Part shown: positions 406 through 32,143 of the stretch, piece by piece
How positions within the stretch are numbered: the stretch's first letter is position 1
Layout: each line of letters begins with the position of its first letter
Assembly (NCBI GenBank): GCA_007127745.1
Contig: SKYV01000046.1
Location: forward strand, 1-32,143
Source: Balneolaceae bacterium
GTDB lineage: Bacteria > Bacteroidota > Rhodothermia > Balneolales > Balneolaceae
DNA: 32,143 nucleotides
Direction of reading: 5' to 3'
The notes under the pieces: generated by a model
The model's input: the letters and a program-made list of their open reading frames with translations, nothing else
What the model was told of the DNA's origin: nothing
The model's database searches: none
Position numbers and translations under genes: made by a program

Positions 406-487
406 TTTTATTTGATTTTTGACACTTTAGATTATCGTGATTTCAAGATAAAATCATTGAAATTGGTTATATAAAGGTGTTGTAGTT

Positions 488-681
488 CAAAAAGGGCGTC
501 ATCCCGTGCCCCGACACGGGATCTCCACCTTATGCATAGAAATATCCTGGAACAACGTTTGGAGATTCCTGATCAATTCAGGAATGACGGGTTTTGGCAG
601 GAGATGCCAGCTTGTCCCTTCGAGAGTTCAGGGTCCGGCATGACGAAATTGATTTTGTTTTTTGACTTCACGCCCTTTTTG
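488..681 (+). repeat. MITE-like intergenic repeat, copy A (diverged)
   Basis: The element is bounded by a 12-bp inverted repeat, CAAAAAGGGCGT at 488-499 and its complement at 670-681. Inside are smaller hairpins (around 501-522 and 565-586). Blocks match the reverse complement of copy B in the same order: the left end through ATCCCGTGCCC, an ATCTCC block, GGAGATGCC, and TCCGGCATGACG near 634. The middle differs, so this copy is diverged or chimeric. It contains no credible gene; a 63-codon frame across it is a by-product of the repeat. It lies between convergent genes. Confidence 0.7.
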
Positions 682-839: not shown

Positions 840-2552
840 TTAGGTATACAAAAAGCGTTTGATATTTTTCTTGGGGGTTTTCTCAAATTCCTGGTCCACA
901 AGTTCAATACCTGAAAGCTGCTCGTAGGATGCCACTGCCTTATTAAAAGCCTGACGTGTTTTTTCCAAAATATCATCCAAGTCATCTTCATCTAAACCGG
1001 CATTTGTCATCATTTCTGAATCAGGATATATTTTTGCCACCAGCCGGTTATTTCGTTGTATGATCACACATTCCTGCACAATCGGAAAGTTTGTAAGCCG
1101 TGACTCCAACTCCTCAGGATACACGTTCTGTCCGCTGGGCCCCAGCAGCATATTTTTTTTCCGCCCTTTAATGTAAATAAATTTCTCCTTGTCAATAATC
1201 CCCAAATCTCCTGTTTTCAGCCAGCCATCGTCAGTAAATGCCTGTGCGTTGACTTTTTCATTTTTGTAGTATCCCAGCATAACATTCCGGCCTCTTACCT
1301 GAATCTCACCTGCTACCTCATATGGGTTGTTACTGTCAATCCGAACATCCATCCGGTCAACTAATTTCCCCGATGAGCCTTTTTTAGTTTCGTTGTGTGG
1401 TGCATAGCTGATGAGTGGCCCGCATTCGGTCATTCCATAGCCAATGGTAAACGGAAACCTGATTTTTCTGAAAAATGCTTCCACCTCAGGGCTCAGGGCC
1501 GCTCCGCCAACCACTGCTTCAAGAAAGTTACCTCCAAAACTTTCGATCAGGCTCTTTCGCGTTTTTTTATAGATCAAATTTCTGATTCCCGGAATGGCTA
1601 ATAAGGTTTTCATCACCGGTTTTTCGAGTGTCGGTACGATTCGTTTTTTATAGATCTTTTCAATAATCAGCGGGACCAGCAAAATGAGATTAGGTTTAAC
1701 CTCTCCCAGTGCTTTTAACAATATCTGAGGTGTGGGTACTTTGGTCAGAAAGGTAATGTGGCATCCAAGCGTAACAGGAAACATGTTTTCAAAAGCCAGG
1801 CCAAATATGTGCGCCATGGGTAGAATTGAAACAATTCGGTCACCGGCTTTAAGCGGCATGTGTTCCCTCGCATAAATAATGTTCGACTCAATACTCCGAA
1901 CAGGGAGCATCACACCCTTAGAAAATCCCATAGACCCGGAGGTATACGATAGAATAAAAAGATCTTCCTCCTCACGTTTGGGAAAAGAAAAATTCTGTTT
2001 TTCTACATTCAGAGAATCATCAATCGCGAATTCAGGGGATGATTTGGATTTTTTGTTAAGGATTCTGAAATCATCAGTGGAAATACAGAGTTTTAATTCC
2101 TTCAATTTGGATTTATCCAGATTTGAATAGAGGGAATCTGCCACAAACAACACCTTTGCACCGGAATGCTTCAAGATGTGAAGAGCGTTTTCGGGGGTAA
2201 AATCCGGCAGAATTGGGACAACTACTCCTTCAAATGCCATGATTGAAAAGAAGGTTGTAGCCCAATTCGATGAATTTCGCGCATAAATCGCAATCTTGTC
2301 GCCCGGTTTTAACCCTGCTTCACTCATGGTGATCTTTAATGCTTCAATCCTCCGGGCCACATATTCGAACGTGAATGTTTCACCCCCATAATCAGTAAAC
2401 AGGGGTAACTCCCAGTTTTGCTGAAATGAGGTGGTGTACATTTGGTCTAAACGTAATTGAGAATCTGAATTTTTCATCGATGAGATCATAAATTTTGCAG
2501 AAGGAATTTTCACTTCATTGAGGAAGTGTTGTACCATAATCAAGGTAAGCAC
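840..2552 (-). CDS. AMP-dependent acyl-CoA synthetase/ligase (long-chain type)
   Basis: This 570-residue ANL-superfamily adenylating enzyme should activate a carboxylic acid, probably a fatty acid, to acyl-AMP and then acyl-CoA. Visible motifs in order are the phosphate-binding loop SYTSGSMGFSKGV (near residue 202), GYGMTECGP (near 372), DGWLKTGDLG (near 444) and KGRKKNMLLGPSGQNVYPEELE-like sequence at the C-terminal hinge. The last resembles long-chain acyl-CoA synthetases more than acetyl-CoA synthetase. The C-terminal end, with KTPKKNIKRFLY, carries the expected lysine-rich region. The first 25 codons look non-conserved; a start at the methionine whose codon ends at 2477 (MKNSDSQLRL) is at least as likely. 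It stands alone, divergent from the lipoprotein gene. The substrate cannot be read from sequence; MenE further right is a separate, recognisable member of the superfamily. Confidence 0.88.
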   Translation of the reverse strand: MLTLIMVQHFLNEVKIPSAKFMISSMKNSDSQLRLDQMYTTSFQQNWELPLFTDYGGETFTFEYVARRIEALKITMSEAGLKPGDKIAIYARNSSNWATTFFSIMAFEGVVVPILPDFTPENALHILKHSGAKVLFVADSLYSNLDKSKLKELKLCISTDDFRILNKKSKSSPEFAIDDSLNVEKQNFSFPKREEEDLFILSYTSGSMGFSKGVMLPVRSIESNIIYAREHMPLKAGDRIVSILPMAHIFGLAFENMFPVTLGCHITFLTKVPTPQILLKALGEVKPNLILLVPLIIEKIYKKRIVPTLEKPVMKTLLAIPGIRNLIYKKTRKSLIESFGGNFLEAVVGGAALSPEVEAFFRKIRFPFTIGYGMTECGPLISYAPHNETKKGSSGKLVDRMDVRIDSNNPYEVAGEIQVRGRNVMLGYYKNEKVNAQAFTDDGWLKTGDLGIIDKEKFIYIKGRKKNMLLGPSGQNVYPEELESRLTNFPIVQECVIIQRNNRLVAKIYPDSEMMTNAGLDEDDLDDILEKTRQAFNKAVASYEQLSGIELVDQEFEKTPKKNIKRFLYT

Positions 2553-2942
2553 TTTAATACTTTATATCAGGAAAACAGGTGGTTCTGATGCCTATCAAAT
2601 GGGATTCTTCATACTGAATAACCAAAGCATTTACCGGTAGTGTGGTGTCAAGATTAGAATGTCGAGCATATGAGACTTCGGAAGTCTTTCTCTACCTAAT
2701 AATCTATAATTAACATAACAGTAGTTTGGTGTGATAATATTTTAGTGATGCCTGAAGTATTGCTTAATCATTTGACTGAATTGAATGAAACATTTTTAAT
2801 AGTATTAAAAGCTGTATAAGACATGTAAAATTAATATGATATATCTCTTGAAAATTTGATTTATTGCTTTTTAAGGATTATCAATAACCTGTTTCAAATA
2901 CTGCCATAAAATCAATTTATAAATAATAAAAGTTGACAACCC
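2553..2942. other. AT-rich divergent intergenic region
   Basis: These 390 bases separate the divergent acyl-CoA synthetase and lipoprotein genes and should hold both promoters. I see no credible small gene. One 15-base palindrome (AGACTTC, one base, GAAGTCT) lies at 2673-2687. The 150 bases before the lipoprotein start are very AT-rich. I could not identify a convincing Bacteroidota-type promoter (TTTG, spacer, TAnnTTTG) by eye. Confidence 0.5.
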
Positions 2943-3584
2943 ATGAAAAAGCAAAATTCATCAATATTATTCTCAGAAATTAAATTAAAACTATTCGTTG
3001 TCTGCTTTTTGGTGTTCACTGGTTTTTCAGCGTGCGATGACAATAACAATGATATCGGAAATGATCACGACATCGATGAATCAGAGTTTGTCGGAATGGA
3101 AACCATTTTTGCCGAGGAAACTCATGAGCTTGAACATATTGACCCTGCAGCGCCCGGAACGGCGGTAGTTTGGATAGATGGTGACGTTTATGAATTCAAG
3201 GATTATCCAAATTGCAGATACACAGGCAGCTCAATCACAGCAGGTGCTGAAACGGACCCTGAAGATGCAGTGAATTTTTGGGTTTACATTCACCGGCTGA
3301 TTCAAGGCGGTGACTTCGAGGCCGGTGATGATTATCGGTTTGAACGCGAAGAGACAACTGTTGAAATTGCATACGGTGATAATCATAATGAGCGCGGCTG
3401 GTTGATTTGGGACCAAATGGATGATGAAAATCCCGACTGGCAGGCTGGAAGTGGTAATCCACCGACAATCCGCGCAACAGAAGATGGTGATATTACTATA
3501 AAAGGCGAGTTCAGCGGACACGATCTGTTTACGGGTGAGGTTGAAATATCGATGACCTGCGAAGATGGCTGGGAAGAAAATTAA
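2943..3584 (+). CDS. Unrecognised acidic lipoprotein
   Basis: This 213-residue protein starts with a charged n-region and hydrophobic stretch (residues 16-30) ending FTGFSAC, a good signal peptidase II lipobox with Cys31 as the lipidated residue. After it comes an Asp/Asn-rich linker (DDNNNDIGNDHDID) typical of surface-exposed or outer-membrane-tethered lipoproteins in this group. The mature part is strongly acidic, without internal repeats, and has two further cysteines (Cys91 and Cys206) that could form a disulfide. A segment near residues 100-125 (DPEDAVNFWVYIHRL) and a C-terminal beta-rich part ending in EISMTCEDGWEEN are the most structured-looking stretches. I do not recognise a family and assign no function. 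The ATG at 2943 is well placed for the signal peptide. Copy B of the repeat follows 11 bases after the stop. Confidence 0.8.
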   Translation: MKKQNSSILFSEIKLKLFVVCFLVFTGFSACDDNNNDIGNDHDIDESEFVGMETIFAEETHELEHIDPAAPGTAVVWIDGDVYEFKDYPNCRYTGSSITAGAETDPEDAVNFWVYIHRLIQGGDFEAGDDYRFEREETTVEIAYGDNHNERGWLIWDQMDDENPDWQAGSGNPPTIRATEDGDITIKGEFSGHDLFTGEVEISMTCEDGWEEN

Positions 3585-3594
3585 TCTCCATCAA

Positions 3595-3757
3595 GAGGCT
3601 GTCCAAAAAGGACGCTCGACAAAATATAATAACTACAATACCGTCATGCCGGACACCGATCCGGCATCTCCTGCTTATAACAAAGAGAGGAGATTTCGCT
3701 TCGCGTTCAAAAAATGAGCGTATCGGGCACGGGATGACGCCCTTTTTGGACAGCCTC
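3595..3757 (-). repeat. MITE-like intergenic repeat, copy B (best preserved)
   Basis: The 163-bp element has 20-bp terminal inverted repeats, gaggctgtccaaaaagg plus three bases at 3595-3614 and the complement at 3738-3757, with one mismatch. Outside these, TCAA on the left and TTGA on the right extend the symmetry with a one-base offset. An 8-bp stem (ATGCCGGA/TCCGGCAT) lies at 3646-3667. It has no coding capacity for a transposase. Relative to copies A and C it is inverted. I saw no flanking direct repeat. It lies between convergent genes, where it could also act as a transcription barrier. Confidence 0.8.
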
Positions 3758-3888
3758 CTTGATTTTTTATTTCTTTTATAGAGCCTCCGACAACCGGCGG
3801 AGCAAGACAAAAGAATGAAGAAAATCGCGAAGAGAATTATTTTAAAAATGGGGTAATTCCTCGTAAGTGATCCTGATTTTTTATGGCA

Positions 3889-4758
3889 TTATCTCCTCAA
3901 ACTTCTCAGGTACTCAATACTTTCGGGAATCTGTTCCAGGACACGGCTGCTTTCATCCTCAATAAAATAATGGTTAACACCGGCTTCTTTCGCTGCTTTC
4001 ATAATGCCATAAATATCAATCTCACCGGTTCCCAAAACTACATTGTATTCCGGATCTGTAAGGCCGGTCAGGTCTTTTTCAATTCCCTCTTTCATATCTT
4101 TCAGATGCATGGTTTCGAAGCGATCGCCGTGAGTTTTAAGCAACTCAACGGGATCGGCTCCGCCAAACTGAATCCAGAACGTATCCATCTGAAAAGCAAC
4201 ATATTCGGGATCGGTGTTGTCCAGAATATAATCCATCAGGGTGCCATCTTCGTGGGGGCGCATCTCATATCCGTGGAAATGATAAGTCAGCGTTAATCCG
4301 TGTTCACTCAAAATTTTGCCGGCCCTGTTAAAAACCTCAACTGCCTGCCGTGCATTTTCATAATTAAAATTGCCTACGTCGTGCGGTATCCAGGCAACCA
4401 TCACATAATCTGAACCGAGGATTTTGGCACGTTCGGCAACTGCTTCGGGATTATTTACCAGTTCTTCATAACCCGTTCCGGTAGAAGGAATAGTGAAACC
4501 ACGCGCTTCACACATTTCTCTGAACTCTTCGGCGGTCAGCCCCTGAGGCACACCACCCTCAATCTCGGTAATGCCCATATCCCTGATTTTATCGAGTGTG
4601 GCTTCCAGGCCTATTTCGGGGATAATGTTACGAAATGAGTACATTTGCACCCCAATATCGGAAGAGAACAGCGGTTCACCCTGTTGCTGCGCTGTTGCGG
4701 CTTCCGGTTTCGAAATAAGTGCAAAAACAAATGCGGTTAGCAGAATCAAATTCTTCAT
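3889..4758 (-). CDS. Exported sugar phosphate isomerase/epimerase-like TIM-barrel protein
   Basis: The product is 289 residues with an N-terminal signal peptide (MKNLILLTAFVFALISKPEAATAQQ). I chose this start because the frame's 18 upstream codons lack features and would bury the signal. The mature part begins FSSDIGVQMYSFRN and follows the xylose-isomerase-like TIM-barrel pattern. Likely metal ligands are the Glu in ITEIEGG, the His in TYHFHGYEM, the Asp in FQMDTFW, the His in ETMHLKDM and the Glu in YFIEDES. Family knowledge: such proteins isomerise or epimerise sugars or related polyols, and exported versions are common in Bacteroidota-like bacteria. The true substrate is unknown. It lies 99 bases downstream of the TrpB2-type gene on the same strand and could share its transcript, though no functional link is obvious. 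Confidence 0.85.
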   Translation of the reverse strand: MKNLILLTAFVFALISKPEAATAQQQGEPLFSSDIGVQMYSFRNIIPEIGLEATLDKIRDMGITEIEGGVPQGLTAEEFREMCEARGFTIPSTGTGYEELVNNPEAVAERAKILGSDYVMVAWIPHDVGNFNYENARQAVEVFNRAGKILSEHGLTLTYHFHGYEMRPHEDGTLMDYILDNTDPEYVAFQMDTFWIQFGGADPVELLKTHGDRFETMHLKDMKEGIEKDLTGLTDPEYNVVLGTGEIDIYGIMKAAKEAGVNHYFIEDESSRVLEQIPESIEYLRSLRR

Positions 4759-22725: not shown

Positions 22726-22869
22726 AGAGGCTGTACTCGATACACTCATTTTTTTGAACGCGAAGCGATATCTCCTTTCATTGTTAAGAGCAGGAGATGC
22801 CGGATCGGTGTCCGGCATGACGGTATAGTAGTTATTATAGTTTGTTGAGTGCCCTTTTTGGACAGCCTC
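22726..22869 (+). repeat. MITE-like intergenic repeat, copy C, flanked by an 11-bp direct repeat
   Basis: From the ATGCCGGA hairpin rightward this copy is a close match to the reverse complement of copy B, including the right terminus (gccctttttggacagcctc, 22851-22869). The left terminus keeps only GAGGCTGT; about 20 bases present in copy B (the rest of the arm and GGGCGTCATCCCG) are missing. ACTCTGTCAGG occurs exactly on both sides, at 22715-22725 and 22870-22880, as expected for a target-site duplication. There is no coding capacity. It separates menH and menB. Confidence 0.82.
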
Positions 22870-22989
22870 ACTCTGTCAGGTCGCTCAATCCCTTTTTTTA
22901 ACCTGCAAATTCCAAATCAAATTGCCAGGAGAATATTTTATATTTTGTGATCAGATCTTAATCACCTTAAACTCTAAATTTTACTCTCC

Positions 22990-30550: not shown

Positions 30551-31525
30551 TTATTCGCCGGGATCGTAAACAGCCACCCCGATTCCAGAATCTCCCATTC
30601 CAAAATAGAGAAACCATGTTCCGTCAAGTTCGGCAAGCCCTTCAATGAAAACCACATTCGGAATTTGCCCCCCAACCTCAAGATCAGTATCAGGTTCCAT
30701 AAAAAAATCGTCTGAGCGCTCTAACAGCCTTGTCGGGTCGTTGATATCAAAAAGCGCCTGTCCCGTACGATAAACAAGGTCATCATCAGCAGAGTTGTAC
30801 AACATTAAAATTCCATGTTCGGTAATCAAAGGTGTGGGGCCCGGCTCCACTAGACCGCTGTCGAACATCCCCTCTCGCGGTTCCATCACCGGTTCCTCAA
30901 TGGGATTCCAGTTGATAAGATCTTCCGACCAGGCAGACCATATGTTGGTGTCACCGAAGTACATCCAGTATCGTCCGTTAATTTTTTTTGGAACAATGGC
31001 TCCGGCTTTTGTCCATCCCAGCTCCGGAAAAATCAACCCGTGACGCTCCCATTCAAACAGGTCTTTGGAGGATGCCAGTGCCTGCCGGGCTGTTTCACCA
31101 TCGTAAGCGGTGTAAGTAAGCCAAAATGTATCATTAATTTTGGCAATTCTTGGATCTTCTGCTCCTCCGGGCAGCTCCCAATCGTCTGCAGGCTCAAAAA
31201 CAGGATCGGGATGCCGATCAAAATTAAACCCGTCGGTACTGGTTGCCAGCCCGATGCGGGACGTCCCGTTCCAGTTGCCAATTCCTGTTGAATCTTCTGC
31301 TCTGTATAGCATATAAATGGTTTCTCCGTCGGACCAGGAAGCGGGATTGAACACATCTTTTGCCTCCCAAGTATCACCCTGCGGAGTGATAACCGGGTTA
31401 CCGTCATACTTTACAAACGGTCCCATTTGCCAGTCAGACAGTTCAAAGTCTGCAGAACAGGAAATTAAAGTTAATGAGAGTACGATAATTGAAATGGCAG
31501 CCCAGATTTTTTTCAACAGTTCCAT
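30551..31525 (-). CDS. GH130-family glycosidase/phosphorylase-like lipoprotein
   Basis: The 324-residue product has a signal sequence ending LTLISC, a lipobox with Cys23 lipidated, so it is membrane-anchored. The mature part is a five-bladed-propeller type with the GH130 order of motifs: DVFNPASWSDGE, YMLYRAED, TSRIGLATSTDG and GGAEDPRI (residues 120-127). TYTAYDGETARQALASS, AIVPKKINGRYWMYFGD, MFDSGLVEPGPTPLITE and GGQIPNVVFIEGL follow. The Asp in EDPR (Asp124) is the expected catalytic acid. Family knowledge: GH130 enzymes cleave beta-mannosides, by phosphorolysis or hydrolysis; some related sequences in GH43/GH32 look alike. The substrate cannot be stated. No transporter or other carbohydrate gene is adjacent. 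Confidence 0.85.
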   Translation of the reverse strand: MELLKKIWAAISIIVLSLTLISCSADFELSDWQMGPFVKYDGNPVITPQGDTWEAKDVFNPASWSDGETIYMLYRAEDSTGIGNWNGTSRIGLATSTDGFNFDRHPDPVFEPADDWELPGGAEDPRIAKINDTFWLTYTAYDGETARQALASSKDLFEWERHGLIFPELGWTKAGAIVPKKINGRYWMYFGDTNIWSAWSEDLINWNPIEEPVMEPREGMFDSGLVEPGPTPLITEHGILMLYNSADDDLVYRTGQALFDINDPTRLLERSDDFFMEPDTDLEVGGQIPNVVFIEGLAELDGTWFLYFGMGDSGIGVAVYDPGE

Positions 31526-31683: not shown

Positions 31684-31724
31684 GCCCGGGTGGCGGAATT
31701 GGTAGACGCGTTGGACTTAAAATC
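31684..31724 (+). tRNA. tRNA-Leu(UAA), 5' half only, interrupted after the anticodon loop
   Basis: The sequence matches the 5' half of bacterial tRNA-Leu. The acceptor strand is GCCCGGG at 31684-31690, then the D-arm (GCG..CGC with GGTAGA), the 5' anticodon stem TTGGA, and the loop CTTAAAA (31716-31722) with anticodon TAA at 31718-31720. The 3' anticodon stem should read TCCA-; only TC is present and then ATTACG follows. No variable arm, T-arm (GGTTCGA) or closing CCCGGGC follows in the next 180 bases. The tRNA is therefore split here, most simply by integration of an element. Whether the 3' half lies at the other end cannot be seen. Confidence 0.85.
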
Positions 31725-31761
31725 ATTACGATAAGCCTTAATGCGCTGCAAACGCCGATTT

Positions 31762-31793
31762 TTGGTAATTTTAGTTACTAAAATAGTTACCAA
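31762..31793. repeat. Hairpin and TAGTTAC direct repeat near the tRNA junction
   Basis: TTGGTAATTTTAG (31762-31774) pairs with CTAAAA..TTACCAA (31778-31793) with a 3-base bulge. The same stretch holds TAGTTAC twice (31772-31778 and 31784-31790), starts 12 bases apart. These could be integrase arm-binding sites or a hairpin; the assignment is inference. Confidence 0.4.
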
Positions 31794-31866
31794 CTCCCTC
31801 CTATGAACGTACTTTGGATATAAGAAATCTGCTACGTCCCAAATACGTTTTTTAGAAAAAGGCAAA

Positions 31867-31904
31867 GTTGTTCTTCGTAATCATTAACCCATAACGAAGA
31901 CAAC
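31867..31904. promoter_or_regulatory. Inverted repeat directly before the integrase start
   Basis: GTTGTTCTTCGT (31867-31878) and ACGAAGACAAC (31894-31904) are inverted repeats apart from one missing base, with a 15-base spacer. The right arm ends directly at the ATG of the integrase gene. It could be an operator or an mRNA hairpin that limits integrase translation. Confidence 0.45.
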
Positions 31905-32143
31905 ATGACGTATAAAATCTATCCCTTTCAACGAGACAACAAATACCGATTCTTTGTTCGGTTTGAAGATGAACACGGAAAAGTAAGAAACCTGTCAACC
32001 GGTGTGACTTTACCATTGCGACACACCAATAAGCAGCGGAAAAAGGCCGAAAAAAAGGCTCAGAAAGAAGCCAAAAAGCGTGTACTTAAAGCGATGGGCA
32101 TGCATAACCCTTCCGTACGGCAACAAATTCAAACGCTCCGTGA
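31905..32143 (+). CDS. Tyrosine-recombinase (phage-type) integrase, N-terminal fragment
   Basis: The frame opens at ATG 31905 and runs off the end, giving 79 codons. The protein begins MTYKIYPFQRDNKYRFFVRF and contains LSTGVTLPLR, the strand-turn pattern of the arm-DNA-binding N-terminal domain found in many Bacteroidota and phage integrases. A very basic helix (KKAEKKAQKEAKKRV) follows, leading toward the core-binding domain. The catalytic domain (R..HxxR..Y) lies outside the window, so assignment rests on the N-terminal pattern plus its place beside a split tRNA. It probably drives excision and integration of the element to the right. Confidence 0.72.
   Translation, partial: MTYKIYPFQRDNKYRFFVRFEDEHGKVRNLSTGVTLPLRHTNKQRKKAEKKAQKEAKKRVLKAMGMHNPSVRQQIQTLR

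Follow-up and report, generated by a model that had tools for sequence, protein, structure and literature searches.

The right end of the DNA analysed here most probably (at a probability of about 0.9) represents attL, the integrase-proximal end, of a genomic island that displaces the 5' half of a tRNA gene and rebuilds the working tRNA at its far end. The analysed stretch, referred to as the window, comprises all 32143 bases of contig C94, one of 287 contigs in a 3.07-Mb draft genome that belongs to the Rhodohalobacter clade of the Balneolaceae. The reading follows from the combination of a tRNA half with an integrase in the window, from the far ends of elements in related genomes and from one element (in G033) inserted outside a tRNA gene. 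The relatives display the half with its integrase at one end, an intact tRNA with a conserved cassette at the other, an element-borne half and empty sites. The assembly contains the fragment end of the window's element and not the other, so the far end is inferred from these relatives.

The displaced tRNA-Leu 5' half occupies positions 31684-31724 of the forward strand and contains the 5' strand of the acceptor stem, the D arm, the 5' strand and loop of the anticodon arm and the first two bases of the 3' stem. It reads GCCCGGG TGGCGGAATTGGTAGACGCG TTGGA CTTAAAA TC, after which the sequence continues with ATTACG..., and the same type of half precedes the integrase in 11 relatives. Identity to the 5' half of an intact tRNA-Leu(CAA) of a relative amounts to 38 of 41 bases, against 21-23 for the best matches in shuffled windows and 24 for the best match elsewhere in the window. 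ARAGORN and Rfam found no complete tRNA in the window, Rfam returning nothing but chance matches at permissive thresholds, and neither a T-loop motif nor a 3' half was detected from 31725 to the contig end, where the best scores (20/45 and 20/49) fall in the null range. A search for the 3' half behind the integrase side and in the rest of the genome recovered only the complete tRNA-Leu(UAA) on contig C25. The half is followed on the same strand by a leader at 31725-31904, the P' arm of the attachment site, which aligns with the leaders of the relatives, and by the N-terminus of a tyrosine-type integrase (31905-32143, 79 aa), which is cut by the contig end. A tyrosine integrase inside the island is identified for the window through this N-terminus and its closest homologue, a full-length integrase of 374 aa in G002 that is 89% identical over the 79 aa. 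As for the catalytic residues expected in the initial annotation, PF00589 and the R...H-x-x-R...H...Y residues are present in the G002 protein, while the corresponding part of the window's own protein lies beyond the contig end.

Searches for the integrase family recovered 14 intact members in Balneolaceae and one broken copy; above a strict threshold it was detected in 12 of 129 genomes of the order, in addition to the window, and its carriers also include Gracilimonas, Balneola and Aliifodinibius. Twelve of the 14 intact integrases are immediately preceded by a tRNA 5' half terminating at the anticodon loop, eight of these halves being of Leu type (window, G002, G013, G014, G057, G116, G130 and G106) and four of Met(CAU) type (G109, two copies in G126, and G116b). 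The clean edge of the window, at which the half runs to AAAATC and gives way to a homologous leader, recurs at 11 other family integrase loci, and the cultured isolate Gracilimonas amylolytica (G057) has the identical half-leader-integrase arrangement. In a midpoint-rooted integrase tree, the Met users form one supported clade within the Leu users, a topology that is consistent with a single Leu-to-Met target switch with the geometry kept. G018 counts against the model, as its integrase is found downstream of an intact tRNA-Leu(UAA) and without a half. At this locus (L092, G018:C45, 15724-16137) the family integrase lies about 320 bases downstream of the tRNA, and a nearby TCTTAAAACC stretch could be a secondary site.

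Contigs that span the element are available for four relatives, and in each an intact tRNA is present at the far end, on the same strand as the half and 25-40 kb away from it (25.3 kb in G106, 39.8 kb in G116, 37.2 kb in G130 and 35.1 kb in G109). The far-end tRNA is the only complete gene found for that Leu isoacceptor in G106, G116 and G130. The configuration by which Islander recognizes 5'-fragment islands, in which a fragment and its cognate intact tRNA flank the island in the same orientation with the fragment upstream, is seen in G106, G116, G130 and G109. Upstream of the intact tRNA, a conserved, element-borne cassette provides a tRNA-type promoter (TTG-N17-TATATTT, at a distance of about 209 bases from the tRNA), direct repeats G(T/A)(T/C)ACC(A/T) spaced 11 bases apart (pairs at about -118/-107 or -129/-118) and, downstream of the repeats, the motif GTACG at -71 to -74. 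The integrase leaders mirror this cassette in their repeats and in CGTAC, set against the inverse GTACG. On the forward strand of the window, an arm-type repeat pair is formed by GTTACTA (31774-31780) and GTTACCA (31786-31792), at +50/+62 from the end of the half (+50/+61 in relatives), and CGTAC follows at 31808-31812, at +84 (+83 to +85 in the four Leu relatives tested, +98 in the Met element of G109). Inverted copies of 11 and 14 bases were detected in the GTACG regions of G106 and G130, lengths reached in 2 and 0 of 100 shuffles, and in G116, G057 and G109 the longest inverted match was no better than chance. Mirrored motifs of this kind have the look that would be expected of integrase arm sites flanking a core. 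A conserved far-end protein, whose three known members are about 23% identical, was not found in the source genome by a search that had no positive control. Two loci in which a far-end-like stretch precedes a displaced half (L094, G014:C73, 2548; L100, G126:C28, upstream of 13182) give the appearance of tandem islands, in which one element would have entered a tRNA that an earlier one had regenerated. At L146 (G012:C41, 14216-14302), a tRNA-Leu(CAA) has cassette-like upstream sequence and an acceptor 5' strand, GCCCGGG, that mismatches its 3' strand TGGGGGC; this tRNA is possibly a hybrid left by an integration.

The origin of the two 5' halves is indicated by two relatives. The G033 element has inserted between two protein genes, which six relatives have in one uninterrupted stretch, and its far end presents the 5' half of a tRNA-Leu(CAA) despite the insertion site not being a tRNA; the element itself therefore supplies the 5' half, and the exchange falls within the anticodon-loop region. 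In G106, the far 3' strand is a better pairing partner for the displaced acceptor strand GCCCGAG than for the element-borne GCCTGAG, with which it forms a T-G wobble. Taken together, these two cases identify the host's original half as the one beside the integrase, and the element's half as the one within the intact gene. The halves of the window and G002 are identical from base 6 to the end though they lie in different isoacceptor genes, a pattern that a crossover further 5', or drift of the dead half, could produce. These results bear out the initial annotation in its description of a tRNA-Leu broken after the anticodon loop beside an integrase, with no 3' half in the sequence that follows, as the edge of an integrase-bearing island attached in a tRNA, an order repeated in independent Balneolaceae genomes; the cargo was likewise correctly placed to the right of the window. 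Its proposal that the element holds the missing half elsewhere survives in spirit, except that a replacement 5' half with a promoter is carried instead of a 3' half; this replacement stands at the far end beside the chromosomal 3' half, and the window accordingly shows the original half after displacement. The far end was anticipated as TTAAAATC followed by a tRNA-Leu 3' half, which has the right form, but in the relatives a full 5' half precedes it and makes an intact tRNA.

The left flank of the half identifies the locus. A chromosomal lipoprotein gene (30551-31525, reverse strand) has orthologues of 80-87% identity that adjoin an intact tRNA-Leu(CAA) directly in G006 and G009, and that share a contig with tRNA-Leu(CAA) in G012, G013 and G020. 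The comparison with relatives lacking the element, which had been recommended at the outset, thus yields two empty sites (G006 and G009). The tRNA had at first been named tRNA-Leu(UAA), and the anticodon loop of the half does read UAA; the locus is nevertheless, to judge from synteny and the acceptor stem, that of tRNA-Leu(CAA) and not the native UAA gene. The acceptor strand GCCCGGG belongs to the CAA type; in its place, the UAA genes of the genus show GCCTCGG, with a single exception among the genomes checked. The source genome's tRNA-Leu(UAA) is on contig C25. Two bases of the half, T28 and T34, are of UAA type. At a CAA locus these two bases are not accounted for by a clean crossover in the anticodon loop; the element may have introduced them, the CAA and UAA genes may have exchanged sequence, or the dead fragment may have drifted. 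The source draft genome yielded no tRNA-Leu(CAA), in keeping with a far end that is missing from the assembly.

The tRNA-Leu(UAA) on C25 (L035, G000:C25, 116-204) is itself accompanied by a far-end cassette, with the promoter at -208 and a repeat pair as in the window leader, and appears to mark the right end of a further element of this kind. Lycopene cyclase and beta-carotene dioxygenase genes lie about 1.5 kb further in (1760-3963) and are possibly cargo for retinal synthesis. As the far end of the window's element in its present form, C25 was rejected: its 3' half is of UAA type and, combined with the 5' half in the window, would mismatch at two acceptor positions, so that either two elements or a rearrangement is needed. 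In the latter case, the window's attL and the C25 tRNA would be the two ends of one element, split between the tRNA-Leu(CAA) and tRNA-Leu(UAA) loci by integrase-mediated recombination, similar to the chromosome inversion of pTN3. We consider this unlikely, although it is the alternative that fares best. The genome has a single attL (C94) and a single attR-like end (C25), both with one arm-site subtype (GTTACTA and GTTACCA, 12 bases apart), a partner is absent in the genome for both ends, and the half in the window combines a CAA-type acceptor with a UAA-type anticodon arm; yet two separate elements with unassembled partners account for the same facts. One flank gene of the UAA locus in the source genome is inside an unrelated-looking contig and the other is at a contig start.

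The window itself contains no cargo. In relatives, the elements hold a BREX set (BrxL, PglZ, PglX and BrxC; G116), type I restriction-modification and SIR2-HerA (G130), or McrBC-like genes, SRAP, LexA-like and UmuC-like proteins and a primase (G106); the sampled cargo is defence genes. No relaxase or type IV secretion genes were recognised among the scanned proteins of three relatives, a subset of their ORFs. A prophage edge in place of a non-viral island would equally place a tyrosine integrase in a tRNA gene, but is very improbable: no relative of the integrase occurs in 2.9 million IMG/VR contigs, phage records match at below 60% identity only (about 26% for the best among the matches listed), no virion or lysis genes were recognised among the G106 proteins tested against Pfam and PHROGs, and defence systems are among the cargo of three relatives. 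Apart from the island, four segments of the window (433-507, 598-728, 3663-3751 and 22733-22870) all match one segment of G012:C41 (9637-9899), which suggests a dispersed repeat common to genomes of the Rhodohalobacter clade.

Restoration of the 3' half is the rule among tRNA islands, with 3760 of 3919 cases in Islander (PMC4383910), and dead tRNA halves are known debris. The window could on these grounds be an ordinary 3'-restoring island that has since lost the 3' half it carried, so that the tRNA-Leu is truly broken. An identical clean edge at 11 other loci of the family, four of which have an intact far-end tRNA behind a carried 5' half, speaks against such a loss; the explanation is refuted for the family and retains only a slight chance for the window. 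An assembly artefact joining unrelated sequences at 31724, a point raised in the initial annotation, might be suspected of a draft metagenome-type contig that stops 420 bases past that position, but is excluded for practical purposes by the same junction in independent genomes, namely the alignment with G002, which runs at 80% identity and without interruption from the half through the leader into the start of the integrase, and the arrangement in the cultured G. amylolytica.

For an island that displaces the 5' half, the following course of integration is proposed. The attachment site of the circular element would consist of a tRNA-type promoter, arm sites and a copy of the tRNA 5' half, followed by the leader and the integrase gene. 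The integrase would recombine this site with the chromosomal tRNA gene inside the identity block that is shared by the 5' half and anticodon loop. Integration would strand the host promoter and its own 5' half beside the integrase, as in the window, and at the far end the host 3' half would be joined to the element's 5' half and promoter, giving an intact tRNA. The regenerated tRNA would then presumably be transcribed from the cassette promoter, and the integrase from the stranded host promoter in the integrated state and from the cassette promoter in the circular state. Such a reciprocal promoter exchange, in which the tRNA-type promoter of the element would serve the host's sole gene for that tRNA-Leu isoacceptor in the integrated state and the integrase gene in the circular state, is put forward tentatively and with less than even confidence, together with a crossover in the window's subclade that may lie 5' of the anticodon stem, outside the three usually listed sublocations. 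Visual inspection of the window showed no clear TAnnTTTG box upstream of the half, as might be the case if a stranded promoter had decayed. If the exchange is true, the supply of the tRNA is tied to the element. Elements in tRNA genes almost always leave the host promoter in place, whereas the present clade replaces it; equipped with its own tRNA promoter, it targets tRNA-Leu(UAA), tRNA-Leu(CAA) and tRNA-Met and brings in defence systems. This opens the question of how an element takes over the expression of a tRNA for which the genomes checked have a single copy, and of whether the host becomes tied to the element. For annotation, a 5' tRNA half beside an integrase is a reason to seek the intact gene at the far end of the island.

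The 5'-displacing tRNA island is a known, minority kind, since both the 5'-fragment islands of Islander and archaeal pTN3 belong to it. A bacterial clade of such islands, the Leu-to-Met target switch and the carried cassette of promoter and arm sites are new; a limited literature search found no description of the clade, the cassette or the switch. Islander contains 159 islands with a 5' fragment among 3919, which resemble the present ones in having a tyrosine integrase, a 5' tRNA fragment at one end and an intact tRNA downstream at the other (PMC4383910). They are listed case by case, whereas here the geometry is kept by a whole integrase clade with two tRNA targets, and a conserved, element-borne cassette of promoter and arm sites precedes the regenerated tRNA. 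In pTN3 of the Thermococcales, attP and attB share 41 bp that correspond to the 5' half of tRNA-Leu(CAA), and the tRNA is detached from its promoter (PMC5495485), a use of the 5' half that a review describes as unique among archaea and rarely encountered in bacteria (PMC8371274). Integrases of this type likewise rebuild an intact tRNA away from the original promoter (PMC5495485; PMC8371274), but the integration site of the archaeal pTN3 lies within the integrase gene, which is disrupted, whereas the present, bacterial integrase ORF starts 180 bases past the half and is intact in relatives, so that the attachment site does not split the gene. A parallel for integrase expression is found in ICEs such as ICEKp1, whose integrase is read from the host tRNA promoter if integrated and from a promoter at the element's end if circular (PMC13023037). 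The present layout would allow similar state-dependent integrase promoters; in ICEKp1, however, the adjacent tRNA stays on the host promoter, whereas here the promoter at the element's end would serve the host tRNA.
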